A stretch of DNA of 64,000 bases, taken from positions 47,238,719 through 47,302,718 of the forward strand of contig CM034533.1 in the NCBI GenBank assembly GCA_020002185.1, in the 5' to 3' direction. Numbering within the stretch: the first letter of the stretch is position 1; each line of letters opens with the position of its first letter. Origin of the DNA: Paraescarpia echinospica. Taxonomy: Eukaryota; Annelida; Polychaeta; Sabellida; Siboglinidae. Shown here in pieces: positions 2,110-64,000 of the stretch. The notes beneath the pieces are model-generated. The model saw nothing but the letters and a program-made list of their open reading frames with translations, made no database searches and was not told the origin of the DNA. The position numbers were made by a program, and so were the translations under genes.

Positions 2110-2719
2110 CGTTATGATAGAACAGTACAGGAACATATATCCTTCCAGATAGGATGTACCAGTATTTATATAGTTTACCGTATTAAGGATCAAGTGTACA
2201 AATGCCCATTAGAACGTTTTTTATCTTTATTCCATACTGTAGTGTTTAAAGTCTTGCTTCTTCGGTAAAACCTTTCAAACTTGCTTCTGTCGTAAAACTC
2301 CTAACCTGGCATCGGTAACTGAAAACGAACTCATATATATATATATATATATATACATAGAGATATACATAGATACATACATACATACATAGATACATAC
2401 ATAAAGTGTCGAACAGCTGTGTAATATCAATACTTGGTTGCAAGACTCCGTTTCAAACAGAGGCGAAACACTATGAAACATATGGTTCTGAGAGTAATGG
2501 AGGGTGATCTGTAAAGAACTTTCTTTTGTCTTGTACACGATTAAACTTTGCAAGACTCTGTATCAATGTATAATCTCTGGTTCTTGTAGTTATGGAGTGT
2601 GACGTGTCAATACGTTTGTGTTGTACATGAATAAAAGGTGCAAACTTCATCTTGTGTCTTTTTCATAGTGTAATGCAAAGCATACGTTGGGAACCTTACT
2701 AATAGCCTTATAATTTACA
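2110..2719. other. Intervening sequence with AT/GATA-type microsatellite
   Basis: No gene is seen. Positions about 2332-2402 are a (TA)n run followed by TACATAGA/TACATACA octamers, the inverted counterpart of the longer tract at 6160-6495. Two loosely similar segments (about 2430-2520 and 2540-2640) share the words 'gcaagactc' and 'tgtacacgattaa', suggesting an old local duplication. Confidence 0.6.
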
Positions 2720-3545
2720 AGGCAATTGACCAAGATACACGGGTAAATTCAGGCAAATTCATGCAAATCGATCAAGATTTCAGGCAAATTCATGCAAATC
2801 GACAAAGATTTCAGGCAAATTCAGGCAATCGACCAAGATTTCAGACAAATTCAGGCAATCGACCAAGATTTCAAACAAATTCAGACAATCGACCAAGTTT
2901 TCAAACAAATTCAGGCAAATCGACCAAGATTTCAAACAAATTCAGGCAACTCGACCAAGATTTCACGCAAATTCAGGCAAATCGACCAAGATTTCAGGCA
3001 AATTCAGGCAAACCGATCAAGATTTCAGACAAATTCAGGCAATCGACCAAGATTTCAGGCAAATTCAGACAATCGACCAAGATTTCAGACAAATTCAGGC
3101 AATCAACCAATATTTCAGGCAAATTCACGCAAATCGATCAAGATTTCAAACAAATTCAGGCAATCAACCAATATTTCAGGCAAATTCACGCAAATCGATC
3201 AAGATTTCAGACAAATTCAGGCAATCAACCAAGATTTCAGGCAAATACAAGCAATCGGCCAAGAATTCAGTCAAATTTAGGCAATCGACCAAGATTTCAG
3301 GCAAATTCAGGCAAATCGACCATGATTTCAGGCAAATTCAGGCAAATCGACCATGATTTCAGGCAAATACAGGCAAATCAATCAAGATTTCAGATAAATT
3401 CAGGCAATCGACCAAGATTTCAGGCAAATTCAGGCAAATCGATCAAGATTTCAGACAACCTCAGGCAATCGACCACGATTTCAAGCAAATTCAGGCAATC
3501 GACCAAGATTTCAGACACATTCAGGCAAATCAACCAATATTTCAG
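2720..3545. repeat. 30/31-bp minisatellite
   Basis: About 26 degenerate copies of a unit like 'caaattcaggcaatcgacca' plus 'agatttcag'. Units alternate between 30 and 31 bp through 'gcaatc' versus 'gcaaatc'. A 30-bp period leaves reading frames open by arithmetic, so the long frame starting at 2761 (repeated Q-I-D-Q-D-F style peptides) is best read as a by-product of the repeat. Confidence 0.9.
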
Positions 3546-3546
3546 G

Positions 3547-3975
3547 CAAATCCACTCACTCACTCACTCACTCACCCAATCCCTCACTCACTCACTCACA
3601 CAAGCCCTCACTCATTCACTCACAAGCCCTCATTCACTCACTCACACAAGCCCTCACTCACTCACACAAGCCCTCACTCAATCAGTCACACAAGCCCTCA
3701 CTCACTCACACAAGCCCTCACTCACTCACACAAGCCCTCACGCATTCACTCACTCACGCACTCACTCACTCACGCACGCACTCACTCACTCACTCACACA
3801 AGTCCTCACTCACTCACACAAGCCGTCACTCACTCACTCACATAAGACCTCACACACTCATTCACACCAGCCCTCACTCACTCACTCACTCACTCACTCA
3901 CACAAGCCTTCACACACTCACTCACTGATTCACTCACACAAACCCTCACGCACACACTCGCACAAGCTCTCACGC
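3547..3975. repeat. Degenerate (CTCA)n tract with a 'cacaagcc' spacer
   Basis: Blocks of the tetranucleotide ACTC/CTCA are separated by 'cacaagccctcac'. The same spacer occurs in reverse complement ('gagggcttgtgtg') in the GAGT tracts at 5369-5400 and 6575-6595. This tract and those are therefore inverted copies of one composite repeat. Confidence 0.9.
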
Positions 3976-3979
3976 ATTC

Positions 3980-4500
3980 ACGTAACTTCCTGTACGTCAT
4001 CACTTCCGGCGCAGCGCCCCCTAGTGGATAATTGACGTACTACATCACATGATGGTGCCATCTAGCAGGTAAAAATATATAAATAGGTTAGATAGAGAAA
4101 AAAGTTGGGGTTAATCTCGCGAAAATTTAAACAACCACCAATGTGGTTGCATAAATGTTCTTAAAATTTAATGTTTTGTCCCAAAGGGACAAAACATAAA
4201 ATTTTCGCGAGCTTAACCCCAACTTTTTTTCTCTATCTAACCTAATCATATATTTATACCCGCTAGATGGCAGCAATATAATTAGGTTAGATAGAGAAAA
4301 AAGTTGGGGTTAAACTCGCGAAAATGTAAACAACTTGGTGGTTGTATAAATTTTCGCGAGCTTAACCCCAACTTTTTTTCTCTATCTAGCATAATTTTAT
4401 ATTTTTACCCGCTAGATGGCACCATCATGTGATGTAGTACGTCAATTATCCACTAGGGGGCGCTGCGCCGGAAGTGATAACGTACCGGAAGTCACTTGAA
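3980..4500. mobile_element. Foldback/MITE-like element with nested hairpins
   Basis: The outer arms (about 3980-4100 and 4380-4500) are near-perfect inverted repeats containing 'gcgccccctagtggataatt' and its complement. Inside are two consecutive hairpins, about 4087-4250 and 4284-4390. Each has arms built on 'agatagagaaaaaagttggg' and 'ctcgcgaaaat'. No reading frame is present, so a non-autonomous foldback element or MITE is most likely. A clear target-site duplication was not identified. Confidence 0.8.
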
Positions 4501-15251: not shown

Positions 15252-16690
15252 ATAAAGGATAATAAATCTCCTGGAATCGATGGGATTCCACCCAAATTAC
15301 TATAGGAAATTGTAGAACAAATTAACATACTGCTTGCAACAGTTTTCAACTTGTTGTTAGAAGAGGGAGTGAATCCTTTAGAATGGAAAGAAGCAAACAT
15401 TATACCGTTATTTAAAAAAAGGTTCGAGAAACAAGTCAGAGAACTACATATCAGTGCGTTTAACATCGGTGATTTGCAAATTATTAGAAAGGCTCATTAA
15501 AGTTGTTAAACATTTCTTGATAAACCCATCTCAACATGGATTTCTAAAAGCGAGGTCATGCTGATCAAATATGTTATGTATTTGAAGATATCACTAAGTG
15601 GGTAGACGAGGGATCACAAGTAGGTATAATCTATTTAGATTTTCAAAAAGCTTTCGACAAAGTGCCACCTCAAATATTACTGCTTAAACTAAAGGCGCTT
15701 AGCATAGGAAATGGTGTAATTAACTGGGTAGAAAAATGGCTGATTGACAGAAGACAACGGGTAGTATTTGATGGGAGGCTTCAAACTGGAAATCAGTTTT
15801 GAGTGGGGTATCACAGGGATCAGTACTGGGACCCATATCATTCTTAATATATATCAACGATTTCGATGATGATATAACAAGTAAGGTGTTGAAATCTGCG
15901 GATGATACAACAGTGTTTAGAAGGATGATGGAGATAGACAGCATTTACAAAATGATCTTGATAGGTTGATCAAATGGTCTGAAAATGGGGGGGTACTGCA
16001 CTAGTTAAGTACTACTGTAAAAGGTAATGACTTAGGGTTAGCCATTAGAGCTGATATGAAGGTTTCAGAGTAGAGTGGAATCGCAGCTTCAAATGGAAAT
16101 CAAACACTTCCATTAATTAAACGAAATATAGCATATAAAGAAAAAGAACTAATAACACCGCTGTACAAAACAATAATTATGCCTCATTGATGATATTGTA
16201 CACAAGCGTGGAGGCCATATCGCAAAAAGGACGTATATATGCTAGAGCGAATACAGATGAGAGCGACTAAAAGTATATCAAAACTGAGGAATAGATCTTA
16301 GTTACGAAATACGCTTAAAAGAATGTGGTTTAATAACACTAGAGACTAGATAGAAGTGTTTAAAATATTGAATGGTTATGAAAATATTAATAGAAGTATT
16401 TGTTCTCATTCAAGAAACATAGAAGGACTAGAGGACATGAAGTTACATTAGTAAAGGAGCAGTGTAGCTTAGATATAAGTAAGTTCTAATTTTCACAAAG
16501 GACTGTAAATGAATGGAACAGATTATCTGCTGATTGTGTGGGTACTAGTAATGTGAATATGTTTAAAAATAAATTAGACACATACCTCAGAAGGGCGGGA
16601 TTCACGTAGATAAAAAGGGTCGGACTCTCGATAAGCCAAATGGCTTCCTTGGCCACCTGCCATCTAGATTTTATTCTCTAGGTGCCAATC
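15252..16690 (+). pseudogene. CR1 RT and 3' UTR, heavily decayed
   Basis: Resumes the CR1 frame at SPGIDGIPPKL-like text and runs through RT to the 3' UTR. Frame breaks are common: a stop within the FADD region (CGDDT by nucleotide change near 15897), a large internal deletion around 15980-16010 that removes the text before 'agtactactgtaaaag', and many substitutions. It ends with the 'cttcctt...aatcttgtt' CR1 terminus. The same copy in segment B is 46854-48449 plus 56115-56610. Confidence 0.85.
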
Positions 16691-46853: not shown

Positions 46854-48449
46854 ATGATGGATAATAAATCCCCTGGAGTGGATTCCGCCCAAACTACTAT
46901 TGGAAATTGTAAAACAAATTAACATACCCCTTGCAACAGTTTTCAACTTGTCGTTAGAAGAGGGAGTGAATCCTTTAGAATGGAAAGAAGCAAACATTAT
47001 ACCGTTATTTAAAAAAGCTTTGAGAAACAAGTCAGATAAATACAGACCAGTGCATTTAACATCGGTGATTTGCAAATTATTAGAAAGACTAATTAAAGAT
47101 CACATGGTGGATTTTCTTGTTAAACATAACTTGATAAACCCATTTCAACATGGGTTTCTAAATGCCTAACAAATATGTTATGTTTTTGGAAGATATCATC
47201 CTCGCGCGCCAGGGGTCGCTGCATGCTCTTAATTTAAGCTCAGCCTATGAAATCGCTCACTAGATCAGTAGATCTAGGCAGGTCTATTTCAATCAACCAT
47301 GGCTCGTGTTACATGCAATGTTTAGGAAGTAGAAGCAATATTTCGAATACACAATAGCGCTCAACTGCTCGTGCTAATGGACGAACGGTTCATAATATAC
47401 TGGGATTCCCAGAAGTCGTTTATCCGTCTTCAAATTGGGACGGGTATTTGCGCTGTTCTCACAGCTAACTTCCGCACTTCGCGTAGGGGATCAGACAGGG
47501 CTAGTTTTGCACATCATCGCAAGCCCTGGCTGATCCCCTACGCATTTTCATAGGCCGAGCTTAAATTCAGAGTTTCGCAAAGCGATCAACCAGAGGGTAC
47601 TGCTGACTGGCACTGACGCAATCAGCAGCAGCGACCCCTGGCGCGCGAAGATGATTTTGCAAGACAAACAGCCCTGGCTTGCGAGGATGGGAGATATCAC
47701 TAAGTGGGTAGACGAGGGATCACAAGTAGATATCATCTATTTAGATTTTCAAGAAGCTTTCCACAAAGTGCCACATCAAAGATTACTGCTTAAACGTAAG
47801 GCCCTTAGCATAGGAAATGATATAATTAACTGGATAGAAAATGGCTGATTGACAGAAGACAACGGGTAGTATTTGATGGGGAGGCTTCAAACTGGAAATC
47901 AGTTTTTTGAGTGGGGTATCACAGGGATCAGTGCTGGGACACATATCATTCTTAATATATATCAACGATTTGGATGATGATATAACAAATAAGGTGTTGA
48001 AATTTGCGGATGACACAACAGTGTTTAAAAGGATTAAACGTGATGGAGAAAGACAGCATTTACAAAATGATCTTGATAAGTTGATCAAATGGACTGACAA
48101 TGGGGGTGTTGCAGTAGTTAAAGGGAAACATAAGGGAACTTTTTGGTGTTATGCACCTAAAATAGAAAATGGCTGATTGACAGAAGACGACGGGTAGTAT
48201 TTGATGGGGAGGCTTCAAACTGGAAATCAGTTTTTTGAGTGGAGTATCACAGGGATCAGTACTGGGACCCATATCATTCTTAATATATATCAACGATTTG
48301 GATGATGATATAACAAATAAGGTGTTGAAATTTGCGGATGACACAACAGTGTTTAAAAGGATTAAACGTGATGGAGAAAGACAGCAATTACAAAATGATC
48401 TTGATAGGTTGATCAAATGGACTGACAATGGGGGTGTTGCAGTAGTTAA
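46854..48449 (+). pseudogene. CR1 RT region, segment B, split by two insertions
   Basis: CR1 RT text from 'ggataataaatcccctgg' to the point where the Kolobok-like element enters. Interrupted at 47199-47691 by a foldback insert and carrying a 328-bp tandem duplication. Recognisable blocks are SLEEGVNPLEWKEANIIPLF, QVDIIYLDFQEAFHKVPHQR (the AFD aspartate is now His) and FADDT. Inactive. It continues at 56115. Confidence 0.85.
47199..47691. mobile_element. Foldback element with 8-bp target duplication
   Basis: A 493-bp insert between AGATATCA (47191-47198) and AGATATCA (47692-47699). Inverted arms include 'cgcgcgccaggggtcgctgc' and its complement, and 'atttaagctc.gcctatgaaa' with its complement. 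A central hairpin pairs 'gtaggggatcagacagggct' with 'agccctggctgatcccctac' (about 47484-47543). There are no coding features. The 8-bp duplication suggests a hAT- or P-type transposase in trans. Confidence 0.85.
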
Positions 48450-48490
48450 AGGGAAACATAAGGGAACTTTTTGGTGTTATGCACCTAAAA
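47834..48490 (+). repeat. 328-bp tandem duplication across a transposon edge
   Basis: 'ggctgattgacag' at 47843 recurs at 48171, and both units end with 'ttggtgttatgcacctaaaa'. Each unit holds CR1 RT text plus the first ~45 bases of the Kolobok-like element (TTAA|AGGGAAACATAAGGGAAC). The duplication therefore followed the Kolobok insertion. Confidence 0.92.
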
Positions 48491-48719
48491 GAGTTAATGC
48501 AAACTAACTATTTCCAACTATAATCATATTTTTTAACTTCAGTGGTTTACTGGTAATATTATCTCAAAGTGGAAAATTCTAACGAAATCTTCGATAACAC
48601 GAAGGCTGCCATCTTACCGATGACGCGGCGGCTTGACCAAAAGCAACCAATAAACGAGCAGCATTATTTTTACCACGCTGACTCCATGACGTAGGCAATG
48701 TTGTCAACACTGACAACAC

Positions 48720-48933
48720 ATGTTACGGCATACGCTGTACAGTTTTGAAGAAATGTGTTTCGAAGTGGATGTATTTCATCAGTTAATGGGACAAGACCCG
48801 CCGAAACGTCGGCGACGTCGGGTTTTGAAGCTTGGAGCAATGCCGACGATATTTAGTTGCAGACTACAACCGTCGAAACACCGCACATTCTCCGTCGAGC
48901 GCGCTGTCATTGGTGAAGTCAGATCGCAAGAAG
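48720..48933 (+). pseudogene. THAP-domain C-terminal exon
   Basis: Reads FEEMCFEVDVFHQLMGQ, PPKRRRRRVLKLGAMPTIF. The ending L-K-x-G-A-M-P-T-I-F matches the C-terminal AVPTIF box of THAP DNA-binding domains (codons 48835-48855), and CFEVDVF sits where the zinc-binding CxxH...F segment is expected. The first zinc pair is not in this frame, so the start is missing or shifted. The exon ends at AAG|GTTAGT (48933/48934), a good splice donor. THAP domains bind the inverted ends in P and Kolobok transposases. Its place 270 bp from the left end fits that role. Nothing downstream was recognised as the catalytic part. Confidence 0.6.
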
Positions 48934-50447
48934 GTTAGTATTGAGTATTCAGTACCTAAATGATAATCTTGTACCATTTCACATTGCAAGGATCTGACGT
49001 TATATACGTAATTATATTGTTTATAAACATCCGGCATAGTTAACTTTCAAGTTTTGGAATGGTGTCGGGAGGAACTGAACCTATGACAGACTTAGACTTA
49101 GCCTCGGCTCTGGCTTTGAGGAATGCATGCCTTCCACCGGGAATTTGACGGTTATTATTATTATTTTATTTGGTCTTACTTGGTTAGTATCACGGACGGC
49201 CGCGTGAACAAAGGCATAGATATTCTGAAATAATATAGAACTACATCACACGTTGAAGACTAAAAGAAAGCCGACGGCTAGCAAAAGTTAACGGCAATCA
49301 ATTCGCGTGAGCGATAATATAGCACTTTGATTAACGTCATCAGGCAGAAAAGTCTGGAATTGTCGCTGTGACCTCTTCAGAAGTTCAGAATGTTTTGTAA
49401 TAACATTTCAGGGCAGAATGTGTTTGTGTGTTAAATTAATTTGTTGTAAATACATTCTGTTGAACATTTGTCTTATAACAAAATAATTGACTAATGACCA
49501 TTGATAAGGGTTCCAATACCAGGATTACTAAACAACATATGTATGAGTATAAATCAAAGGACTGAATGACTATGCAGGGTATATTCTTCTTTGTTCAAAT
49601 AACTAACTGCCCATAAATCAGCAGCAGAGAAATGCTGGATAATCAGATCCCATTACATAACAGTGACAATATGCTTTTATTTCAATAAAAGTGAGCAACA
49701 ATTCTACCGGTGTATTTGGAGTGATAATTGACAATTTAACAATTTTAATTTGATTTTACAAACATTCGTAGGCTCCAGATGCACAGCTATGTTGTTATAG
49801 TTAGAGGAAAGAAAGTAACGGACACAGTGTAACAGTACACATTGTTTATATTATTATTATTACTATTTTTGTATATTATAAAAAATACTTCTGTGTGGGT
49901 GAGGTAAATCTTTATGATTTTCTGAAATGTTATGTCTTGTAATTTATTTAAATGCCAGTGAATAAGTGTCACTTTTATGATGGTGAACTTCAATCAATAT
50001 ATATACATTAGAATGTGTTATGTTTTGTATTCGCAAATTCATCACCTGTTTCTAATTTTAACAAATCATTAAGAATAATTACTTTGAAAGCCTAATCTGC
50101 AATACAGGTAATTAGCGCATCCATCACTTGGGATGCAACAAAGATCAAGTCCTTCAAACCCACTTCTCCATAAACCACGTGGTAGACAGGTACCAATTGC
50201 AACTACCAGTCAGGTTCTAGGCTGGTAATAAAACTGGTGTAAATAGGGAATTTAGGGACTGAAAGAGCAGATAAGAGAAATGCTGAACAAAGGAAACCAA
50301 CCTGGGTTATATAAAGGGACAATACAGAAGAGTTGTTGTCCTGGATTCATGTCACCCAGGTGTTATCAGGTGATAAAACTCTTTGTGTGTGTACTGGGAC
50401 TGTTATCATTTATAAATGTAAATTTATATAAGAAATGATTGTAAATA
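48934..50447. other. Interior of Kolobok-like element, nothing recognised
   Basis: AT-rich with no clear domain. Could be intron of the THAP gene. Confidence 0.4.
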
Positions 50448-50839
50448 CACTAAAGCTCACCTAAGTCGGATTCACCTAAGTCAGATCTTTGCTCAACTCA
50501 GACATCATTCTGAGGAACGGTTGATTTGTAATGCATTTCCCATACAAGTTTGTCCTTGCCTAAGTCGGATCGCAGTATTTTACAAATTCACTTGGTAAGC
50601 TATAACCTTAGAGATCCGTGCCAAAATGAAGCACACAACTTTTGTAATATTGTATGATCGTGTATGTTGCTTGTGGACATCAACATTTATAGAATTACCA
50701 CGTTATTTACAGTTACCTAAGGGCTTTTAGAGGGTTGCCTTTGGCGCTGGGATATGTCATCTGCGGCTAAGTCGGATTTTCGTGTAACTCGGATTAAATC
50801 ACTCGGTCCGATTGAATTCGACTTAGACGAGGTTTACTG
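50448..50839. mobile_element. pogo/Tigger-like MITE
   Basis: A 392-bp element between TA dinucleotides. The left end 'cactaaagctcacctaagtc' pairs with right-end complement 'cagtaaacctcgtctaagtc'. Internal 'ctaagtcggat' words repeat. Such 'taagtcgga' inverted ends with TA duplication are typical of pogo-type Tc1/mariner elements. No coding capacity. Confidence 0.75.
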
Positions 50840-52320
50840 TAATTTGTTTTGATCAGTTCATTCACTTCCAATTCAATCTGTTTCGATTTTTTATTCAAAT
50901 TTATCTGCGACAAACCATCCTTTTCACATAAGACGGGTTTAGTGGCTGTTTGTAGACTATTTAACCTAAACTCCCATTGGTGTGAACAAATATCACAATA
51001 TTATATATGTACTGGTTTTACAATGTGTACTTGAACTGATAGTTATCTGTCAACCAAGCAGCAGAGTAGCAGAATGGTTTAATTGGTTGTCAGATAACTA
51101 ACATAAAAAGTAACAAGAATTAAAGTAACACAAAAGTAACATTACTGATGTTATTATTTTATTTATTCATTATAAAAGTACTTTTGTGTTAAAAATGGTA
51201 GCAGTACATCACCAATAGATGACTACAAATTGAATAAAGTAAATATTTAAAATACTGGTTTTTTATTTAATTTTTAAACTCAACGTAATTATAAATTGGA
51301 AGTTCTAAATGTCAAATTGCTGTAGCCCCAAAATTACTGGAGCTGAGAGGCTCCTATTTTAGTTTCATGTTCATCTTCTCAAGGGATATCAATCACCAAA
51401 TTGATTATTCAAAAACTGAAGAGATGAATGCAACCAATTTCGGAATTATCGGTTACCTTCAGATAGAATGACCTACTATATGACGATGTTATTAATGATG
51501 ACAAACACTCCATAATTAATCCAGACAATTGGTATCCCTCATGTTGTGTCCCATCGAGTGCAGGGAAGTGTGATCGTATTTGATGACTGGCATACGCTGG
51601 TATAACTCTCCGTACCCTTCGGCCCAGCCTGCCATGGATCCACCAGATGAACGGTCTATATGCAGCCCATCAGAGACTTGAAATAAAATAAGGCTCAAAT
51701 AAATTTACTAACATTGCTAGCAGGTGATGTATGAACATGGGTTTGAGGTAGTTCATTTCCTTGTCAAATTGGTATATATATATATATATATATATCAACA
51801 AGCAGTGTTTGTATGAAATCATCTTAACTTTTCTTCAATTCTCACGTAGGCATGCTACTCAAAATGTTCTAGATTGATCATATGTTGTTTACTATTAAAC
51901 ATTTAAAAACGTTGGCATATTTCTACAAACTATGTCTAGTATATACAGTTTATGAAACTTCATACATATTATATTTGCTTACACATTTTAAAATTGCTGT
52001 TGCTTTGCTTGATCTTCTGGTTACTGTAGTATTATCGTCATTGTTGGTATACGCCAATAAATATGTAACAACACATTTCACTGCTATTATAACACATGAA
52101 TATATACTTACTTGTTCGTTGACGGGTCTAGACCAGTTGCCAGTTATCTAACCGAATGTGATTCATAGCAACTAGTAAATTTCATAGCACTAGCTGCTCC
52201 AAACACAAAATACCAAATCCGTGGCCATTCGTAACGCATTGTAGTCCACCTGCAACAAAGAACCAACCGTTTAAATGAAAATACTGCATGAATATAAACA
52301 AATGGGGATAGTTATTACTA
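50840..52320. other. Interior of Kolobok-like element, nothing recognised
   Basis: AT-rich. A (TA)n run lies at 51773-51794. No frame carries a known domain. Confidence 0.4.
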
Positions 52321-52475
52321 CAGCGGAACCTCGCTATATGGTCACTTTGCAATTGAGGTCACCTTAGGATAGTACACAATTATTTCCACACTCGGTATAG
52401 TATAGGATATCAGTACCGCTAGAAAGGTAACTTTTATCCAGTCCCAAGGGTGACCTTAAAAGTGAAGTTCCATTG
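52321..52475. mobile_element. Second small pogo-like MITE
   Basis: A 155-bp element between TA dinucleotides. The left 'cagcggaacctcgctatatg' and right complement 'caatggaacttcacttttaa' are imperfect inverted ends, both followed by 'ggtcac' text. Confidence 0.65.
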
Positions 52476-52701
52476 TACATTATTTCAGCAAAAAATCGAT
52501 CACTTTATGATTATCATTCTGAATGAAGCCAATTTCACAAGAAGCATGGATTAGGATTGTCTTTCTGTATTTATCCCACAAGAATTATGCCCCCTCTATA
52601 AATTAAATATCAAGCCTATTAAAAGAACAATTAATACTGCCACACATTTGTCTCATACGGTGATACACATGCATAGTCGTTACTGTAGTGTAAATGTAAT
52701 A

Positions 52702-55244
52702 ATTAGGCCTTTAGCCAGGACCCAACATTTGGGCAACCGGTTCATTTTTAGGGACGAAAGCTCATAGTGATTTTTGGCTAGGCCTACATTCCTAGAGATG
52801 GAAAATAGGTGATAGCATTGCAGTATTCCAAACTTTCTGTGAGAAATCACTCTTTTTCATACTATCCCCATATTCGCGACAACAAATATTCTATGAAATT
52901 ACTAATGGGGTGCCCATACACAAACCACTATGGACTATTTACTATACATCACAGTAAACAAAAATGTGGTTAGAACATCATGCTTTCCATACATATCAAC
53001 ATTATTTTCATATCCTGAAATTCTGGCTAATAACCACATGTATCCTCATTCGAGGTACTTATTGCACCAAAATGTTGGCTTTCATCCCTAAATATAAAAA
53101 ATATGTGATAGCACTGCAGTACATACATTCTTTTGTGTGAAATTACTCGTTTTAATCCTTCCCCATTTCCGCGAAAACTATTTTTCTATGGAAATTGCTG
53201 AAGGGGTGGTCACACACAAACCATTATACAATAGTTATACATATTATGGGTATGATAATTGTACATGATATGGCAGATGTGTCACGTGTCATACACATGT
53301 GAAAATTGTTTTAATCAGCTCAGAAAACACAGATATATTCATCATGTGCCTGGCACTCAAAGAGAACATTAGAGCCACGTTGTTCCAGAAATGTGGTACT
53401 AGAACCCGAACAAGAATCCTTCGTATTGGAATTATAGCAGCTACTGTTGGCAGAGATGTTTGTAAAGCTCTCATTGGATTGCACGCATACTATGGATGTG
53501 ACACTGTCAGTGCATTTGCTGGAAAAGGTAAGGCAAGTGCTTTGAAACTCTTGACTAGCAACAAAGAATCACAGGACTCATTCAGGATGCTGGGCGAGGA
53601 ATGGGATCGCTCTCTCCAGATCTCATGGACAAACTAGAGGCATTTACATGCCTTCTTTATGCACCAGAATCTTCTGATGTGAACGTCAATGATCTGAGAT
53701 ACCACCTGTTCTGTGCAAAGAAAGGTGAGATAGAGAGTCACCAACTGCCACTATGCAGATACTGTTTGTTGAAACATGCACAACGCGCAAACTACCAGGA
53801 TGTTTGGAGCAGGACCCAAGGACTCCGATCCCAGTTGGCAGAGGGTGGAAGTTGGAAAGAGAAGATGGGACTAAGATTCTGGTTGTACACTGGATGGAAG
53901 GTCAGCCAGCACCCGAGGCCGTGTTGGATCTGCTAGCGTGCAGTTGTCCGAGGAAGTGTGAACTGCCAAAGTGTGTCTGCTTGTCAAATGGACTGAGATG
54001 TACTGATGTGTGAAGACTCCAAGACTGTGACAATCAGGTGTCTAGTGCTGACAATGATGAAAGTGTAGCTGAGGATGAACTGGATGACGGCTGTGATTAC
54101 TAAACACTGTCTCTAACCTCAACTAAGGACATACTGAATTAAGCATGTGAAATGTTCACAATGCATAGTGTGCATCACTACAGCTACCAATCAATACTGT
54201 GTACCTGTATAATTTGAATGTCTACAACAAGTCCATTGTATGTAGGTTAGTGTTACAGTCAGAACTTTAGGTGGCTAACATAAGAAAATGTAATTTTATC
54301 TCAATGACAACAACTGCAAATTTCAATGTCATAATAATACATATAACTGCAATAAAATGTACATTATGTGTCTACATAATAAAAACTGAAGTCCAGTGAC
54401 CATTCTGTTGCAACAAGAACATAGAATGTGGATACATGAGGTTACTAACCAGACATTTAAGTGATTTATTTTGTTGAATGCGTGGATCGCATGTTGAGAT
54501 GCGGTAGATAAAATGCCATAAATTCAACATTTCTCAATGTATTAAAACAATTTTCAGATGTATGTGACAAATGACACTTCATCCAAATTACATACAATTA
54601 TTATATCCATAAGATGTATAATAACTATTGTGTAATGGTTTATGTGTGACCACCCCTTCAGCCATTTCCATAGAAAAATAGTTTTCGGAGAAATGAGCAA
54701 AGGATTAAAAAGAGTGATTTCACACAAAAGAATGTATGTATTGCAGTGCTGTCACATATTTTCCATATCTAGGGATGTAAGCCAACATTCTGGTGCAATA
54801 AGAACCTCGAATGAGGATATACGTGGTTTTTAGCCAGAATTTCAAGTGTTTTTTGTTGAAAACCTTAATGCCGTGGATTGCATTTTGAGATGTGGTAGAT
54901 AAAATACCACAACATCCACAATTCTCAAGAAATTAAAATAATTTTGACATGTCTGGAACGCATGACATTTAAACCACTTTTTATCCAATTTTCAATATAC
55001 TGAGATGTGTAGTAAATATTCCATAGTAGTTTGTGTATGAGCCCCCATTTGCAATTTCATAGAAAACTTGTAGTCGCGGATATGGGGATAGTGTGAAAAA
55101 GAGTGATTTATCACAGAAAGCTGGGAGTGCTGCAATGCTATCACCTACTTTTCCATCTCTAGGGATGTAGACCTAGCCAAAAATCACTATGAGCATTCGT
55201 CCCTAAAAATGTACCAACAAACCCTCTGGCTCATGGCCTAAATG
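52702..55244 (+). mobile_element. Foldback element with ~600-bp inverted arms and a FEN-like pseudogene
   Basis: The left arm (52702 to ~53260) and right arm (~54590-55244) are inverted repeats at roughly 85-90% identity. Each arm holds two related sub-blocks with the order 'ttggctaggcctacat/tggctttcatcc', 'gatagcattgcagta', 'tgtgagaaatcactc' and 'tttctatg.aaattgct'. Outer ends are 'attaggcc' and 'ggcctaaat'. The ~1.3 kb centre carries the pseudogene at 53287-54015. A target duplication was not resolved. It lies wholly inside the Kolobok-like element, either as a nested insertion or an internal structural part. Confidence 0.78.
53287..54015 (+). pseudogene. XPG/FEN-like nuclease fragment with Cys-rich C-terminus
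   Basis: Three frames join in order. Frame 1 has ISSENTDIFIMCLAL (a PIN-type D-T-D strand), then ALIGLHAYYGCDTVSAF followed by GKGKASALKLL. G-C-D-x(6,)-G-x-G-x-x-x-A-x-x-L is the pattern of the metal-binding Asp plus helix-hairpin-helix of XPG/FEN nucleases. Frame 2 has LEAFTCLLYAPESSDVNVND, LRYHLFCAKKGEIESHQLPL and LLKHAQRANYQDVW. Frame 3 ends with RPAPEAVLDLL-like text and a Cys-rich tail, CSCPRKCELPKCVCLSNGLR, resembling a CXC zinc cluster. The frame changes near 53605 and 53805. Many invertebrate genomes carry uncharacterised proteins of this form; the nuclease reading is inference from the motif. A T-rich tract and AG at about 53318 could be an acceptor. Confidence 0.62.
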
Positions 55245-55570
55245 GGGACACAACAGTTAACCTATTTGTTTTCTATCATAGCCGTGGACAATTTGGAACT
55301 CGGTTCCTGGAACCATTTTTAAAAGGGTGAAGGTAGAACCTTAGGTAATATTCATATAAAATGAAAAACTGCACACTCGGACATCGAGCCCACGGCACTG
55401 GCACGGAGAATGAGAACTGAGTATGAGGCGGAGTCGGGGCTGTCGTCGAACCGGTCCGAGGTGCCACCGAGCGATCGACTCACTCAGTTCATACATTTAT
55501 TTATTTACATTATTACCCAGCCCGGACCTCATAATGAGCAGCTTTTTATACTAGACACATAAATAATTAC
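55245..55570. other. Spacer inside the Kolobok-like element
   Basis: GC is higher around 55380-55500 than nearby, but no domain was recognised on either strand. Confidence 0.4.
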
Positions 55571-55840
55571 CTTCACCGACATGCTCTGCGTGCTATCAAG
55601 TCGCAGCCGTTTTCTGACAGCAGTCACCACTGACACCAGTCAGTCACGTCTCGGCTTGTTAGTCGCCTTTGCATTTCCACTTTCCGCGGGTCTTTTTTAT
55701 CAGGCTTACGGTCACCGGTGCACTCTGGTCTATCTTGCAATACTGGACCTTGTCTTTGCGGTTGAAACCGATATCCAGCTACTTCTGTATCCATTTCATT
55801 CATCATCAGACGAAGAATCATAACCGTAGCGACACGCCAT
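55571..55840 (-). pseudogene. P2RX7_C-like zinc-domain exon
   Basis: The minus strand opens with ATG at 55840 and an acidic DSSSDDE start, then a frame change leads to MDTEVAGYRFQPQRQ, RRLTSRDVTDWCQW. G-Y-R-F-x-P-x-R followed by R-L-x-x-x-D-V-x-x-W-C-x-C-G-x-C is the start of the P2RX7 C-terminal zinc domain that occurs in many short animal proteins with no channel. Here a one-base change after TGGTGTCAGTG puts GGTGACTGCTG (G-D-C) out of frame. The exon ends at GAAG|GTAATT (55571/55570), a good donor. It lies 270 bp inside the right terminus, facing the THAP exon. Two shifts make this copy inactive. Confidence 0.6.
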
Positions 55841-56114
55841 CTTGTCTAAACTCAGTTGGTAACGTAACACAATAGCGCCACCTGACGTTTTTTTAAGAAA
55901 CACTAGTACACACAAAATCCAGAAAGGTACAAAGCACTGCATACGTAATTTTCTGTTCAACAATGGCGCGATTCATGAAATTCGATAGAGGTGTGTTCAA
56001 ATTGTTTTACTAGTAAACCACTGACGTTACAAATATGATTATAGTTGGAAATAGTTAGTTTGCAATAATTCTTTTAGGTGCTTAACACCAAACAGTTCCC
56101 TTATATGTTTCCCT

Positions 56115-56610
56115 TTAAGTACTACTGTAAAAGATAATGATTTAGGGTTAAACATCCGTGCTGATATGAAGGTTTTAGAGCAGTGCGGAATTGCAGCTTC
56201 AAATGGAAATCAAACACTTGGATTAATTAGACGATATATAACGTATAAAGAAAAAGAACTATTAATACCGCTGTACAAAGCAACAATTAGTCCTCAGTTA
56301 TAATACTGTACACAAGCGTACAGGCCATATCGCAAGGACATAGACATACCAGAAAGAGGACAGAGGAGAGCGACTAAAATTATACCAAAACTGAGGGATG
56401 GATCTTAGTTACGAAATACGCTTAAAAGAATATGGTTTAACAACACTAGAGACTAGATAGAAGTGTTTAAAATATTGAATGACACATACCTCAGAAGGGC
56501 GGTATACACGTAGATAACATAGGGTTGGACGCTCGATAAGCCAAAAGGCTTCCTTGTCCACCTGCCATCTAGAGTGAATTCTCTAGGGGGCAATCTTGTT
56601 AAATCTTTTT
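56115..56610 (+). pseudogene. CR1 RT C-terminus and 3' UTR, segment B
   Basis: Continues the CR1 broken at 48449 ('aagtactactgtaaaag', ISADM-like codons, RRATKIIPKLRD-like text) and ends with the CR1 tail at ~56575-56612. A 70-codon deletion joins 'atattgaatg' directly to 'acacatacctcag' at 56480. Confidence 0.85.
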
Positions 56611-56612
56611 AA

Positions 56613-57096
56613 AAATGAATGCCGAACACTTTTGGGGTTTGGACATTTCGTCGTATATTTTGTTGAAATTCTCGTCCCAAAAGTGGTTGCAGTTTGTTAT
56701 GATACAAACATAAGACCATATATTTAAAGTGACAACGGGATTGTTTGATTTATGTGATGTCAAAACGCAATATTCTTCTTACACCGTCTGTATGTTGACC
56801 TATATATCTCCGTCAGTTTTGCGTGTTTGCGAGCTGAAATTGTATATGGGTTAGGGTTGATTGTCTGCTATTTAGCGGACCCATTGGGGTGGTTTGTAGA
56901 TTTAGATTCTTCGAAATTCTTTCGGGGATGTATTTGTTAAATTGGACGTCAGAATTTCAAAATGGCACTTAAATCTCCGTCAGTTTTGCATGTGTGGTGC
57001 TGAAATGTTGTGTGCCGGAGCGTCGGGTTTGGGAATCTTGGGGTGTCAATCACATATCACTGCCTTTTACTCCGGGCAACGCCGGGTAATTCAGCT
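56613..57096. mobile_element. Helitron-like 3' end candidate
   Basis: 57072-57096 reads 'ccgggcaacgccgggtaatt' then CAGCTAG followed by T. A short GC-rich hairpin ~10 bases before CTAG, with T after it, is how Helitron 3' ends look. The body back to the CR1 tail has no coding sequence. In segment A the hairpin is lost ('tttttttcgagtaagtcagctagt' region, about 17160). The 5' TC end was not located. Confidence 0.45.
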
Positions 57097-58359
57097 AGTA
57101 TATACACTGTAGGCCTACAACTTGCAATGTTCGTATCGCGGTGTCTCCTCGCGCTGTCTCAGATCTTGATATCGGAACACGAGGGGTGCTGTTGGAGATT
57201 GCTCACCTCTCAACGGAACGTCAGCGGTTCAACACATCTCAGCACGTCTCCCGTGGTGTCACGCTCTCTCGAAGACGACGGGGTGCTGTTGGATATATTA
57301 AGCGACAGTCTGGGAGATTTGCCTGTATTCCGGGAGACCGGGAGATACACCAAAACATCAAGGAGACTCCCGGAAATTGCGGGAGAGTTGGCAGGCATAC
57401 TGCCGCTTACTGCCGCGGTTAAACTACTGTCACCTCTTCTGATGACACGTGGTTCTATGAAATCATATTTGTTTCTATTAATGACACATTTAGTTGAAAG
57501 TTTAATTGAAATGAGAAGCGGCTACCTTTCTTTCTGAAATATAGCTATGTAAGACACATCAATAAAAATTACATGCTAGAACAATATGATGGTATCCGGC
57601 ACATTTAAGGCCTAGTAAAAAAATAACGACTAGTTGTTTGTGAGTCAGCCAGTCCGACGGTCTACTTCTCAACTAAAACCTTTGTGCACCCTGCGATTGC
57701 TTAAGGGAAGTCAATGGTGATCATGTCTACTGCTTTCTTCTCATCGAGAAATTTACTTAAATAGTCGAGCATTTTAATTAGTTGTGTTTCTCTTGATCTT
57801 TCGGCATGGATACCAACCATGTTGGTGGTCAGTCAAAATGTGACGCTGTTTACGGTGTTTCATAACAAGTGAGTAGGCCACATCGTAAGAATTACGTAGA
57901 TATGCCAGAAAGAGTGAAGATAAGAGTAAAAGTATAAAAAGTAAAAGTAACTTCTTATATAGCGCAGTATCCAGTCCTTTGGACTGCTCAAATTATCCCA
58001 GAACGTAGAGACTATTACTCCCGATACTAAATTAATCGTCTGATAATGTAATAAGTGTCCGATACAGTAATAAAATCAACTGGTAATGTAGTAAACTTTC
58101 TGCCCAATAATTTAATATTTGTTGACTGATAATGTAATAATTGTTGACCGATAATGTAATAACACAGACATGTCATGTCTTTGTCAATTTCGTGCATTTC
58201 ATCCATTTCGCCTGTTATATTTTTGATAAATACTTTTTAATAGCACTCGGGCTGGGCCCGGGATTAAAATTAAGCTGTCGGGTTGGGCGTGTGAACTACT
58301 GTTGCGGGGCTGTGTCTTGTCTCTAACTGTTAGGTGCGGACAGGTGTAGGACACTCAAA
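57097..58359. repeat. Segmental duplication B, non-coding block
   Basis: Counterpart of 17180-18867. 57280-57405 has 'gggagatttgcctgtattcc' and 'ctcccggaaattgcgggaga' followed by 'gttggcaggcatactg', which resembles the inner end of hAT-type MITEs. Repeated 'gataatgtaataa' words lie at 58030-58165. Confidence 0.75.
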
Positions 58360-58720
58360 ACAGTTATAATCAATCAGTCGATGGAAAAAACTAGTTAGTG
58401 TGAAATGGCCTTATTAATTACGTTAAGGTTATTACCATTGCTGTGGTTGGAGTTAGGGTAATTGTAGGAACCAATCAGACGACGAGAATAAATATTTGAT
58501 TTGAAATGCCATTATTCATCAGGGTTAAGATTATTATTATTAGTTATGATTGGAGTCAGTTATAATTGGGATTAAGATAATAGCTGGAACGAGTCAGATG
58601 ACGAGAATAAATAGTTAGTGTGAAATGTCATTATTAATTAGTGTTAAGATTATTATTATTATTAGTTCTGGTTGGAATCAGCTATGGTTGGGGTTGATAA
58701 TAACTCGGTTTGTTTATGGT
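58360..58720. repeat. ~110-bp satellite, three units (segment B)
   Basis: Core motifs at about 58365, 58472 and 58590. They correspond to the last three of the eight units in segment A (26728, 26830, 26947). Confidence 0.85.
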
Positions 58721-59609
58721 TAGGGTTAAGCCCTCAACGATTACACCGAAGACCTCACTGTATACCTACACTCATGAACTAATGCATCAAAATATATGTT
58801 TCATTTTATTAACCTAGATCTATCGAGCCAGTAATTACACTTACATGATCATAGGTCTACAGCGGAGTATTTATGATCTCTGGGGAACGAAGCCATACGT
58901 GAGCCTCAAGTACATCTCCACAGCTATTAACTTCGCCCAACCCAGACAATATTTTGAATACGAACATCCTGCGGACGTTTCCCCAGATGTCCACCCGCCG
59001 ACGATAAACAATTTAAAATAATAAAACGACGTTACTTGAATTCGTACACTCCATGAACTTGTCGCTGACACGACGAAGTTTATTAATAACATCAGTCTGG
59101 TGTCAATAGCTTTGTTTTTTCTTTCCGTAACCTTTATTACCAAGATATCCTACCCCGTGTAAAGCTTCGTATCGTTTGCCCGGAGACCACCGACTTCCCA
59201 CCAAACGAGACATACTTTATGAATGGCTCCACAAACACATAGAAATTGAAAAGTCGAGAAAAAATGTAGGGGTAGTGTTTTGAGCTTAACAGTATTACGG
59301 TAGTGTTTGAGGGGTCCGTGTATGTACAATGTTTTCCTTTTTCGTTTTGAAATTTGCGAACAAAAAAGCAAACAATGTTCGTTTTTCGTTTTCATATTTA
59401 AAATACGAGAAACGAATACAATGTACTATTCGAGGTATTTATAATACATGTTAGAAAAACAAAATAACACTAAAACCAACCGTTTTTAGTTTTCGCTGCA
59501 CCAGAACGGAATACGAAATACGACTGCAGCCAGCGCCACTTGTTTGTGCACTTAGGAAGTTTCGGCTGCTTTACCGATTGGGCTAGGCGCCAAATGTTGG
59601 TGGCTTCGG
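58721..59609. repeat. Segmental duplication B, leader of the OTU relic
   Basis: Matches 27061-27440 and then 29500-29989 without the 2 kb ISL2EU-like insert. No separate gene is seen. Confidence 0.7.
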
Positions 59610-60345
59610 CGGGACAATTCGGTGCAGTTCGTATCCCCCATTATCCGGCAGAAGGAACTCAAATGGAAGTATGTTAGCGACATTATATGTTTGGCCAGAT
59701 ATCGAGAGAAGAGGCGTCGAATCATGCGACATCGTGACACTTATTACATACCTATGAGTCCGACGGGTGGAATGGACTGGCTTGATCGTCATGACTTCTG
59801 GGTACGGTACAATCTTAAACCGAATGGAAATTGCCAGTTCGAGGCAATAGCCGACCAGCTCAGCCGACTCAGGATTTTGAGAACTAGACGACCTACGTGC
59901 AGAGATCGTCAGGGACATTGAGCAGTATCCACACCCCAGGGATGGTTCATCACTAAATAACTTCTTGGATAATCAGGATATAATGTTATATCTCCAAACG
60001 ATGGCCCAAGACGGTACTTATGAAGCCCATATTACCATTCAGAGAGGCACTATGATTGTCAATGTACAGTTGATAATTTTGTCGTCTTTGGGACTGCTAC
60101 TTCTGTTATTTCCACGACTGACAAATACGACGAGCACATTCCTACACTGTATCTCGCCCAACTTGGAGAAGGACGGGTTAAACATTATCTCGACGTTGAG
60201 GGCGTGGCGAGAGTCAATTCCATATTTGACAGTGCGGGTAGTGGGGACTATAACGATGAACAAGATAGTGAGCATGATGACAATGGAAGAGTGTTGATTG
60301 ACAGTGGGGACGGCCGTGAAGAAGATGCAATAGTTAGCCGACAGT
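59610..60345 (+). pseudogene. OTU-like cysteine protease relic (copy B)
   Basis: Better kept than copy A. The frame 59622-59921 reads KELKWKYVSDIICLARYREK, MDWLDRHDFWVRYN and NGNCQFEAIADQLSRL; the Cys codon is 59832-59834. After a shift near 59885 another frame gives DIEQYPHPRDGSSLNNFLDN, YLQTMAQDGTY and ITIQRGTMIVNVQ. After a further shift it has YDEHIPTLYLAQLGEGRVKH, where the catalytic His (60183-60185) is retained. The region before NGNC has no named domain. It is followed by an acidic repeat in the same sense. OTU domains occur in Helitrons and other mobile elements, so an element origin is possible. At least two shifts make it a pseudogene. Confidence 0.75.
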
Positions 60346-60735
60346 GAGGACGAGGGGAGAGGAGGGTGGATAGTAGACAGTGAGGACGAGGGCAAAAGAG
60401 GGTGGATAGTAGACAGTGAGCACGAGGGCAGAGGAGTAGGGATAGTAGACAGTGAAGACGAGGGCAGAGGAGGAGGAATAGTAGACAGTGAGGTCGACGG
60501 CAGAGGAGGGTGGATAGTAGACAGTGTGTACGAAGGCAGAGGAGTACGGATAGTAGACAGTGAGGACGGGGGCAGAGGAGGAGTGATAGTAGACAGTGAG
60601 CACGAGGGCAGAGGAGTATAGATAGTAGACAGTGAGGAAAAGGACAGAGGAGTATGGATAGTAGACAGAGAGCACGAGGGCAGAGGAGGAGGGATAGTAG
60701 ACAGTGATGACGAGGGCAGAGTAGGAAGGTTATTA
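60346..60735 (+). repeat. 36-bp coding minisatellite (acidic 12-residue repeat), copy B
   Basis: About eleven units of 'gtagacagtgaggacgaggg' plus 'cagaggaggRtggata'. In the OTU frame these read V-D-S-E-D-E-G-R-G-G-W-I and variants, with one in-frame stop near 60620. The 36-bp period keeps all frames open, so the long minus-strand frames here are shadows. Confidence 0.88.
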
Positions 60736-61173
60736 GACAGTGGGAAAGAACATATTGAAGATAGATCAGTTGACGATAAATCAAAGATCGACGATTTACC
60801 GGACTTAGATGATGGTGACGTTGACAGGACTAGAACAAGTCACGAAGTTGTTGAAATTACTCGCAGCGAAACAGTACACAGAGATTATGATGACCCAGTG
60901 AGCGATCCGTCTCTATTCCCGAACAAAATATGTTCACATATACATATGCCACTCGCATCCGATTTAACAACGTTAGGCTCCATAAATTGCGTGTCTGTAA
61001 CTTTCTGGGAATTAACAGCTCTTCGCGTAACAAACCAGTTTTTTTCGACAACTCGATTACATAGTTCGTGTACTTTATCAGAACCTTTGAACTTTGGTTC
61101 TGATTGTAACAATACTGTGAACATCAGAAGACTGGTGGGGGAGGGTTGTTGGGTACGAGAGGTGTTCGTATAG
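60736..61173 (+). pseudogene. Possible C-terminal extension of the OTU relic
   Basis: The frame continues after the repeat with acidic text (DDKSKIDDLPDLDDGDVD, then RDYDDPVSDPSLFPNKICSH) to about 61173. Both strands are open over 60857-61124, and the minus strand frame (KFKGSDKVHELCNRVVEKNW) also looks protein-like, so the coding strand is uncertain. Absent from segment A. Confidence 0.35.
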
Positions 61174-62145
61174 GGTAACTGATATTTTTGTGTGATTTGT
61201 GATCATTTCCAATAATGGATATTTCAACTATATATGCCTATAATTTGTAGAGCAATACCTTTTTATTATAATGTGTGTTGTCTATTCACGTACTTCAGTG
61301 TGCGTTAAATTCATGATGACAGTCATTTTTTGTCTCATTTGACGCATTACTAGTGCAATAGTAATCTCGTTACTTTGTGACCTTATTTATTTCAAATATG
61401 AATATGCCAATAATGACAGCATCATTATTATCATTACTTAATTTTTATACTTAATTTTGTCAAGCACATATCGTTAATTTATCTGCGAATAATGACGACA
61501 ATATAATTTTAATCGTTTGTGTCATCATGTGATCTCCGTGTTATTTTTATTTTATGTGCGAATATGATGGCAAAGCCAGTTTGGTCTCTTGACGCAGGTA
61601 TGTGATCTGCATTTGTAACGTCCGTAATACTAGCAATTAGGCTTACAAGTTGGTGACGTCAGAACATACCTCAGGGGAATATATTTAACCGTTTACTTTG
61701 AAAGAATACTACGAAATAAAATGCATTGTTTCTATTTGAGTGGAAATTGTTGGTACTCTTTAATTGATCATAATTACGCTCAAGATCATTACTTAACACA
61801 TCTTAGCTTATCATTGTAGATATGCAAGGAGTCAGAGAGTTGGTAGATCTGCTGGACAAGTCAGTTCGCAATTTTTTTACAAAGTTTTTATTTCAGGTAT
61901 TGTGACTATTTTCACGTCAATGTGAAGGGGGACTGTGCATGTTCTGGTTATAAAGTCATCTGAAGAATTGCGAAATGGACGAAACGCACGAAATGGACTA
62001 AGTCCAAGAAATCCATCAAATTTACCAAATTGACTAAGTCCACATTAATTTTCTATGTTATTATACTATCGGTCAACATTTTTTACATTATCAGGCAGGA
62101 GCAGTCCAAAATTACATTATCAGTCGATTATTACAGTATTGGTTG
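61174..62145. other. AT-rich spacer, nothing recognised
   Basis: No domain or element end seen. About 61975-62040 repeats 'acgaaat/cgaaatggac' words. Confidence 0.45.
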
Positions 62146-62462
62146 TAACGGAGACCTTAGTTTTGAAATACGCCAAAAATGTGGTTTAACAACCAACAGT
62201 AGAGACCAGGAGAATAAGAGGTGAAAAGGTAACAGTTTTTAAGATATTTACTGGTGATGAAACTACTACTAGAAGTAGTTTTATCAGGTAAGGAAGTTAA
62301 AAAGGACTACAGGATGTGAAGTAAGTTCAGTGAAGGAAAACTGTACATTTTATTTCAGGAAGTATTCATTCTCACAAACGACCAACAATAAAAGCGATAA
62401 TGTGTAGGTTCTACGGGTGCTAGCAACATAAGTATGTTAAACAAATCAACAAATATCTCTGA
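62146..62462 (+). pseudogene. Old CR1 remnant
   Basis: LSFEIRQKCGLTT aligns with LSYEIRLKECGLTTLETRR of the CR1 C-terminus. Further matches follow in shifted frames: 'gagaccaggagaataagagg', 'attctcacaaacgacc', 'gggtgctagcaac', 'agtatgttaaacaaa'. It is much more diverged than the other copies. Confidence 0.65.
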
Positions 62463-62639
62463 CATAAACGTTTACAATAACAACAACATTTCAATGCTTA
62501 TGTGTGTTTAATGATCGTGTTTTAAATGTTCGTTATTAATCCAACGTATTACTGTACGTAAAGCGCTGTAAATAAGATATGCACTAGTCGTTGATGGGAG
62601 TCTGACACAGTGGATGATGGTACAATAGTCGACAATGGC

Positions 62640-62945
62640 TTATCACATCACCATAGAAGCCATCACCCTTGGGTAGAATGCTCCACTGTGACAGTCTACA
62701 TCTTAATAGAAGCCATAACCCTGGAGTAGAATGCTCCACTAGGACTGTGTACATCTTTATAGAAGCCATAACCCTGGGGTAGAGTGCTCCACTGTGACTG
62801 TCTACATCTTAATAGAAGCCATAATCCTGGGGTAGAATGGTCCACTGTGACAGTCAAAATCTTTATAGAAGCCATAACCCTGGGGTAGAGTGCTCCACTG
62901 TGACTGTCTACATTTTTATAAATGCCGTCACCCTGGGGTATTCCT
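62640..62945. repeat. ~54-bp minisatellite
   Basis: Five to six units with 'tagaagccataaccctgggg', 'tagaatgctccactgtgac' and 'gtctacatctt', at about 62654, 62707, 62760, 62813 and 62868. Confidence 0.88.
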
Positions 62946-63133
62946 CAAACAATGCCTGAAACACAAACGTTTCGCCATCTTTATCGTGGAAACAACAAAC
63001 ATTTACGAACCACAACAAAGCATATATCGTGTGCTGATTAGATGTTTCATAACATGTAGTCACTGACACAATGTGAAAGTTATTTAGGCGATAAATCTAC
63101 ATTGTTAGAAAATAAGTTTACATGAAATTGGGC

Positions 63134-63238
63134 TTTTGAAAATATGGTAAGTTACCTTTCCGAGTCCTATGTTGCTCAGAACTGATTCCGTTTTGAGCAA
63201 CATAGGACTCGGAAACTTAACTTACCATATTTTCAAAA
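63134..63238. repeat. Long near-perfect hairpin
   Basis: Arms of ~46 bases (63134-63180 and 63193-63238). 'gagtcctatgttgctca' pairs with 'tgagcaacataggactc', and 'ttttgaaaatatggtaagtt' with its complement at the far side. The loop is about 12 bases. A decayed version lies at 32205-32270. Confidence 0.9.
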
Positions 63239-63374
63239 CTATGAATGTAACCTAGTCCGGAAGCAATTTACATGCTAATATAATGAAACAGGGCATTTGA
63301 TATGAATGCCTAATTTGTGCAGCCAGCATAATGATACATCAATACCATGGCTGATGAAACAAGGTGAACCTACC

Positions 63375-63535
63375 ATTGGGTGAAAACGTGACTTAAGGTA
63401 ATCCTATCTTGGGGTAACAAGTTGAAGGTGATCCCACCTTGTGGTATCAAGATGAAGGTGATCCAATCTTGTGGTAATACAATAAAGGTGATCCCAACTT
63501 GGGGTAACAAAATTAAGTTGGAGGGGGTCCTACCT
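63375..63535. repeat. ~30-bp minisatellite, second locus
   Basis: About five units of 'aaggtgatcccaacttgggg' plus 'taacaaaat'. Same family as 32380-33060. Confidence 0.88.
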
Positions 63536-64000
63536 TTGGGTGAAGGGAGCGGTGGCTTGTTAGACTGACCTCAAAGAAAGAGGTGGTATGATAGACTCAC
63601 ATTAAAGAGAACAGTGGTTTGACAGATTGACCTTAAAAAGAGAAGACTCACCATAAAAAGAGCGGTGGTGTAATAGACTCACTTTAGTGTGCGCGCTGGT
63701 GTGGTAGACTGACCTTAAATGAGCAGTGGTTTCGTAGAATGACCTTAAAGAGGGCAGTGGTGTGGTAGATTCACCTTAAAGAGGGCAGTGATGTGTTATA
63801 CTTACCTTAACCGAACAGTGGTATGGTAGACTGACCTTAAAGAGGGCAGTGGTGTGGTAGAATGACCTTAAAGAGAGCAGTGGTTAGTACACTGACCTTA
63901 AAGAGAGCAGTAGTGTGGTAGACAGACCTTAAAGAGAGCAGTGGTGTGGTAGACTCACCATAAAAAATGCAGTGGTGAGGTAGAATGACCTTAAAGAGGG
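63536..64000. repeat. 31-bp minisatellite, second locus, running off the window
   Basis: About 15 units of 'gaccttaaagagagcagtgg' plus 'tgtggtagact'. Units vary between 'actcacc' and 'actgacc'. Same family as 33061-33250 and 34795-34928. Confidence 0.92.

Follow-up and report, generated by a model that had tools for sequence, protein, structure and literature searches.

The window, a 64,000-nucleotide stretch of the Paraescarpia echinospica genome, carries a real transposable element at positions 48446–56118, adjoined at both ends by a TTAA duplication. Its inverted ends of ~112 bp (48446–48556 on the plus strand, 56007–56118 on the minus strand, each with its TTAA target-site copy) align with 91% identity over 113 columns, and the left one is repeated genome-wide. 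Left and right ends alike carry the terminus sequence 5′-AGGGAAAC beside the TTAA, and the termini are of the RR…YY form (AG…CT). The element interrupts a CR1 copy, and a second CR1 copy on the plus strand, at 15733–16374, spans the insertion point uninterrupted: the left-flank match stops at 16004 and the right-flank match begins at 16009, with 4 bases between them, which confirms an empty site. An initial annotation of this locus had proposed the TTAA duplication, the inverted ends and a CR1 sequence that rejoins once the element is removed, and all of these stand.

Two further features were not part of that account. A tandem duplication (47843–48171 against 48171–48499) takes in the CR1 left flank and the outermost ~54 bases of the end, so that an end stub is present outside the element. 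The window copy is also without ~1.64 kb that another copy, L039, holds at its positions 2717–4360; alignment to the copies places the deletion junction near 51527 (51520–51530). Other CR1 copies within the window have ~95 extra bases at the insertion point. From these coordinates, we read the interrupted CR1 and the copy at 15.7 kb as probably sharing an older deletion.

Near the left end, on the plus strand, an open frame (48714–48938) contains a putative exon for the C-terminal, AVPTIF-box part of a THAP domain, with the splice donor AAG/GTTAGT (GT at 48934). All 15 loci that align there share the identical donor, called a good one in the initial annotation; some of these loci represent the same place. 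The THAP call itself stood in part. The frame of the window has no Pfam match; the exon has seven homologous proteins at E ≤ 10 (best 2.3e-6), an AVPTIF-type box is found both in the window and in these homologs, and three of the five homologs scanned match THAP positions 69–87 of 87 at E 0.037–0.057, under the curated cut-off. Given the box and the weak homolog matches, the left exon is likely, though not proven, to be a THAP relic comprising the end of the domain only.

The minus strand carries two exons of a gene resembling the P2X7 ballast domain, one of them near the right end, where a P2RX7_C-like exon had been annotated. The last exon (51526–51669), corresponding to the C-terminal end of the P2RX7_C profile, matches PF20478 at E 3e-4 and 21.2 bits (curated cut-off 23.5) over profile positions 148–187 of 192, and it recurs in other copies; copy L041 matches at E 8.1e-5, slightly under the curated score. 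The N-terminal exon (55624–55845), whose start lies in a different frame at 55796–55972, has no Pfam match in the window and nine homologous proteins at E ≤ 1 (best 9.2e-37). One of the eight homologs scanned, P0129, matches PF20478 positions 53–102 at E 0.0012, under the curated cut-off, and continues into a cysteine-rich stretch. A PDB sequence search with the P2RX7_C exon gave no relevant match. The similarity to the P2X7 ballast is thus present, with every PF20478 match under the curated cut-off, and the gene is broken, a relic. In the sections of Kojima & Bao 2022 on which we draw (PMC9587614), the Kol0 lineage of Kolobok encodes a transposase and KolX, a protein that resembles P2X7 residues 476–595, and P2X7 is described as having arisen via KolX fusion; we refer to the minus-strand gene as KolX-like.

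The genome examined comprises 1.08 Gb in 3111 contigs. A first look returned 1586 candidates with the end as query, 575 with the left exon and 484 with the P2RX7_C exon, and among the 40 places scored per query, 40 of 40 matched for each. The outer-element family is common in this genome. With the window copy and its duplicate counted in, the sets of 40 scored places, which were not picked for pairing, gave at least 17 pairs in which an end lies upstream of a P2RX7_C exon, no more than 8 kb away and agreeing in order and strand; a further cross-pair links neighbouring elements. Pairs of end and left exon numbered at least 14, and pairs of left exon and P2RX7_C exon at least 11, across the three sets.

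Nine other copies were selected for paired end and P2RX7_C matches. All nine hold the left end, the left exon and the opposite-strand P2RX7_C exon in the order and orientation of the window, which bears out the view that the element is Kolobok-like and that THAP-type and P2RX7_C-type exons characterise its family. Seven of the nine retain the right exon region and six the right end; these six have TTAA on both sides and measure 5.9–9.1 kb (L039, 6025 bp; L041, 5876 bp; L042, 5959 bp; L044, 9145 bp; L045, 7344 bp; L047, 7259 bp). Full-length frog Kolobok copies are given as 6.8–13.9 kb (Hikosaka and Konishi 2018, PMC6004289, in the part cited here). By segment, the window copy matches L039 at 74–88%, whereas the other copies in the same comparison do so mostly at 85–96%, with one segment at 78%; being farther from L039, the window copy may represent a different subfamily. 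The left exon is interrupted by an insertion in three of the nine copies. These insertions in the left-exon region (L047 519–1372, L044 343–5252, L046 ~445–1267) appear, by our own reading, to be of CR1 type and to include other reverse-transcriptase-like frames.

The initial annotation had suggested an autonomous family, a claim that the coding content does not bear out. Across six frames of L041 (stops as X), Pfam models found no transposase, including none of the DDD/E type with a C/DxxH signature, and P2RX7_C was the sole match; the lists of frames for the nine copies show no obvious long frame of transposase type, and we read the long frames there as probable retrotransposon insertions. 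Compared with the majority reading, the P2RX7_C exon (144 bases, 33 places) shows 24 synonymous and 69 non-synonymous differences, four of the latter being stops, with a pN/pS of 0.83. The exon drifts almost neutrally, and retained function in the family was rejected on these figures. No transposase together with near-neutral drift fits a non-autonomous family with relics, and the outer element is apparently non-autonomous, decayed and internally deleted. The same two observations would suit a non-autonomous element that captured the P2RX7_C and THAP exons once from the host and was then amplified; we consider this very unlikely, since just such a protein has been published as Kol0's second gene (PMC9587614) and a THAP domain is the norm for Kolobok transposases (PMC6004289).

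Because a Kolobok transposase was not found, placement in a lineage rests on the ends and the relics. The TTAA target, the RR/YY termini and the P2X7-ballast-type (KolX) gene are those of Kol0 as set out in the cited sections of PMC9587614, and the probable THAP-type relic recalls Kolobok transposases, which, according to part of PMC6004289, usually contain DDE and H2CH motifs along with a THAP that has an AVPTIF box. The element differs from Kol0 in that the examined copies are decayed, with no transposase found, and in that the window copy carries a nested insert and has lost 1.64 kb internally. A few piggyBac families, which are TTAA-specific too, encode a KolX-like C-terminal part (PMC9587614), and this counts against the Kol0 reading. 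Nevertheless, a piggyBac-type element bearing a KolX-like protein, to which the TTAA target site would be equally suited, seems very unlikely here: RR/YY termini are the mark that separates Kolobok from piggyBac in that source, the left exon has an AVPTIF box, and a KolX-like N-terminal exon is also present. The best explanation, which we hold with high confidence, is a decayed, internally deleted and apparently non-autonomous copy of a Kol0-type (transposase plus KolX) Kolobok that later received a nested insertion. Taken together, the statements in the cited parts of the two papers mean that the combination of THAP and a P2X7-ballast gene in a Kolobok is already known; the initial annotation had been aware of no description of the gene trio, and for the P2X7-ballast part it is superseded by the account of KolX.

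Between the KolX-like exons lies the nested insert, which spans 2,537 bp (52704–55240), has the termini TAGGCC…GGCCTA and is no part of the Kolobok family. Comparison with empty sites defines AAT target-site copies at 52701–52703 on its left and 55241–55243 on its right. Its inverted arms lie at 52739–53326 (plus strand) and 54530–55215 (minus strand); direct repeats with spacings of ~296 and ~390 bases are found inside them. The insert holds a FEN/XPG-like and CXC pseudogene (53311–54013, plus strand), of which only the C-terminal part remains, in three broken frames.

At 25 other distinct places (29 loci, four of them repeats), the site of the nested insert is uninterrupted. The P2RX7_C exon was located at 34 distinct places. 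Two of them, the window and its duplicate, have the arms, 23 read straight through the site, and the remaining nine, which are not judgeable at the site, have no match to the insert; two more continuous places came from the end search. The arms occur in two of the 47 loci tested, namely the window locus and its segmental duplicate, and the insert sequence was matched in none of the nine other fetched copies. The AAT copies and the 25 empty sites therefore identify the nested insert as a later, independent insertion, and the FEN/CXC piece is foreign to the Kolobok family.

The initial annotation had favored a single composite autonomous family with the THAP, P2RX7_C and FEN-like genes all as cargo, and in the window copy all three pieces do lie between one pair of ends. 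We give this reading almost no credence: the FEN insert has its own AAT copies and arms, the other 25 places are empty there, and no other fetched copy matches it. The trio arose through nesting, and its third member belongs to a separate insert with its own duplication. Recurrence in long copies accordingly divides, the left exon and the P2RX7_C exon returning in place and the FEN-like region being absent. Profile searches divide as well, with PF20478 recovered on the last exon and in L041, and no Pfam match for the left exon, the right exon or the FEN pieces. As cargo of the Kolobok element, the FEN/CXC piece is ruled out.

Neither the FEN piece nor the FEN alignment had a relevant match when searched by sequence against the PDB. 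The relatives of the FEN/CXC piece have a predicted FEN/EXO1/XRN-like fold. In Foldseek searches against the PDB, a first FEN-CXC model (P0038) matched nothing at E ≤ 0.001, and the best 50 entries included none of FEN type; against viral models, it gave weak FEN/XRN matches, none at E 0.001. A second model (P0017) had Rad2 as its best match at E 1.1e-3, none at E ≤ 0.001, with SUMO-E1 and tRNA synthetase at similar E. A viral-contig scan with the FEN alignment yielded 22 pattern matches, 0 of them confirmed. FEN-CXC proteins are many in fish, snails and metagenomes, mostly without a Pfam assignment.

AcademX transposons have a nuclease of XPG type and YR termini, and the TA…TA termini of the nested insert presumably fit this group. 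AcademX elements also make 3- or 4-bp target-site duplications and encode a nuclease, as stated in the cited part of PMC10045372; the insert resembles them in its AAT duplication, established from the 25 empty sites, and in its FEN/XPG-like pseudogene. Unlike AcademX, it has long inverted arms with internal repeats, and no Academ transposase was seen in its 2.5 kb, where the frame list holds no long frame. With no Academ transposase in view, assignment to AcademX stays a guess, and the chances that the nested insert is an AcademX-like derivative are about even. Clearly less probable, we think, is that it represents a perhaps undescribed group of DNA transposons, in which a fusion of a FEN/XPG-fold nuclease and CXC (tesmin/TSO1) sits between long inverted arms.

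The whole locus is present a second time, in a segmental duplicate (L001, L009, L048) ~46.8 kb downstream on the same contig that is the counterpart of window positions 47361–63998. Duplicate and window show zero mismatches over 47361–50070 and 49900–53210 (one gap), 99.5% identity over 54500–60640 and 97.3% over 60448–63998, a comparison that leaves out 53210–54500 (~1.3 kb).

The ends, the target-site copies, the empty sites, the recurrence of the exons and the nesting are direct observations, and around them we propose a history of the locus. A Kolobok element would have inserted by cut-and-paste at a TTAA within a CR1 copy, with a Kolobok transposase presumably supplied in trans from elsewhere. 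Its left exon would be what is left of the THAP part of an original transposase gene, and its minus-strand exons the relics of KolX, from which, according to the cited sections of PMC9587614, the P2X7 ballast domain derives. After the outer element had lost function, a second DNA transposon, possibly akin to AcademX and with long inverted arms flanking a nuclease pseudogene of FEN/XPG type, would have landed at an AAT between the KolX exons. Segmental duplication would then have copied the entire locus.

The FEN-CXC family is widespread and ownerless, and here one member lies within an element whose target-site copies are clean; if the nested insert does stand for an undescribed group, the FEN-CXC proteins of fish, snails and metagenomes would be products of that group. 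For the outer element, the locus points to a large Kolobok family that is decaying within one genome and retains relics of KolX, in agreement with the published transposon origin of the P2X7 C-terminal domain.
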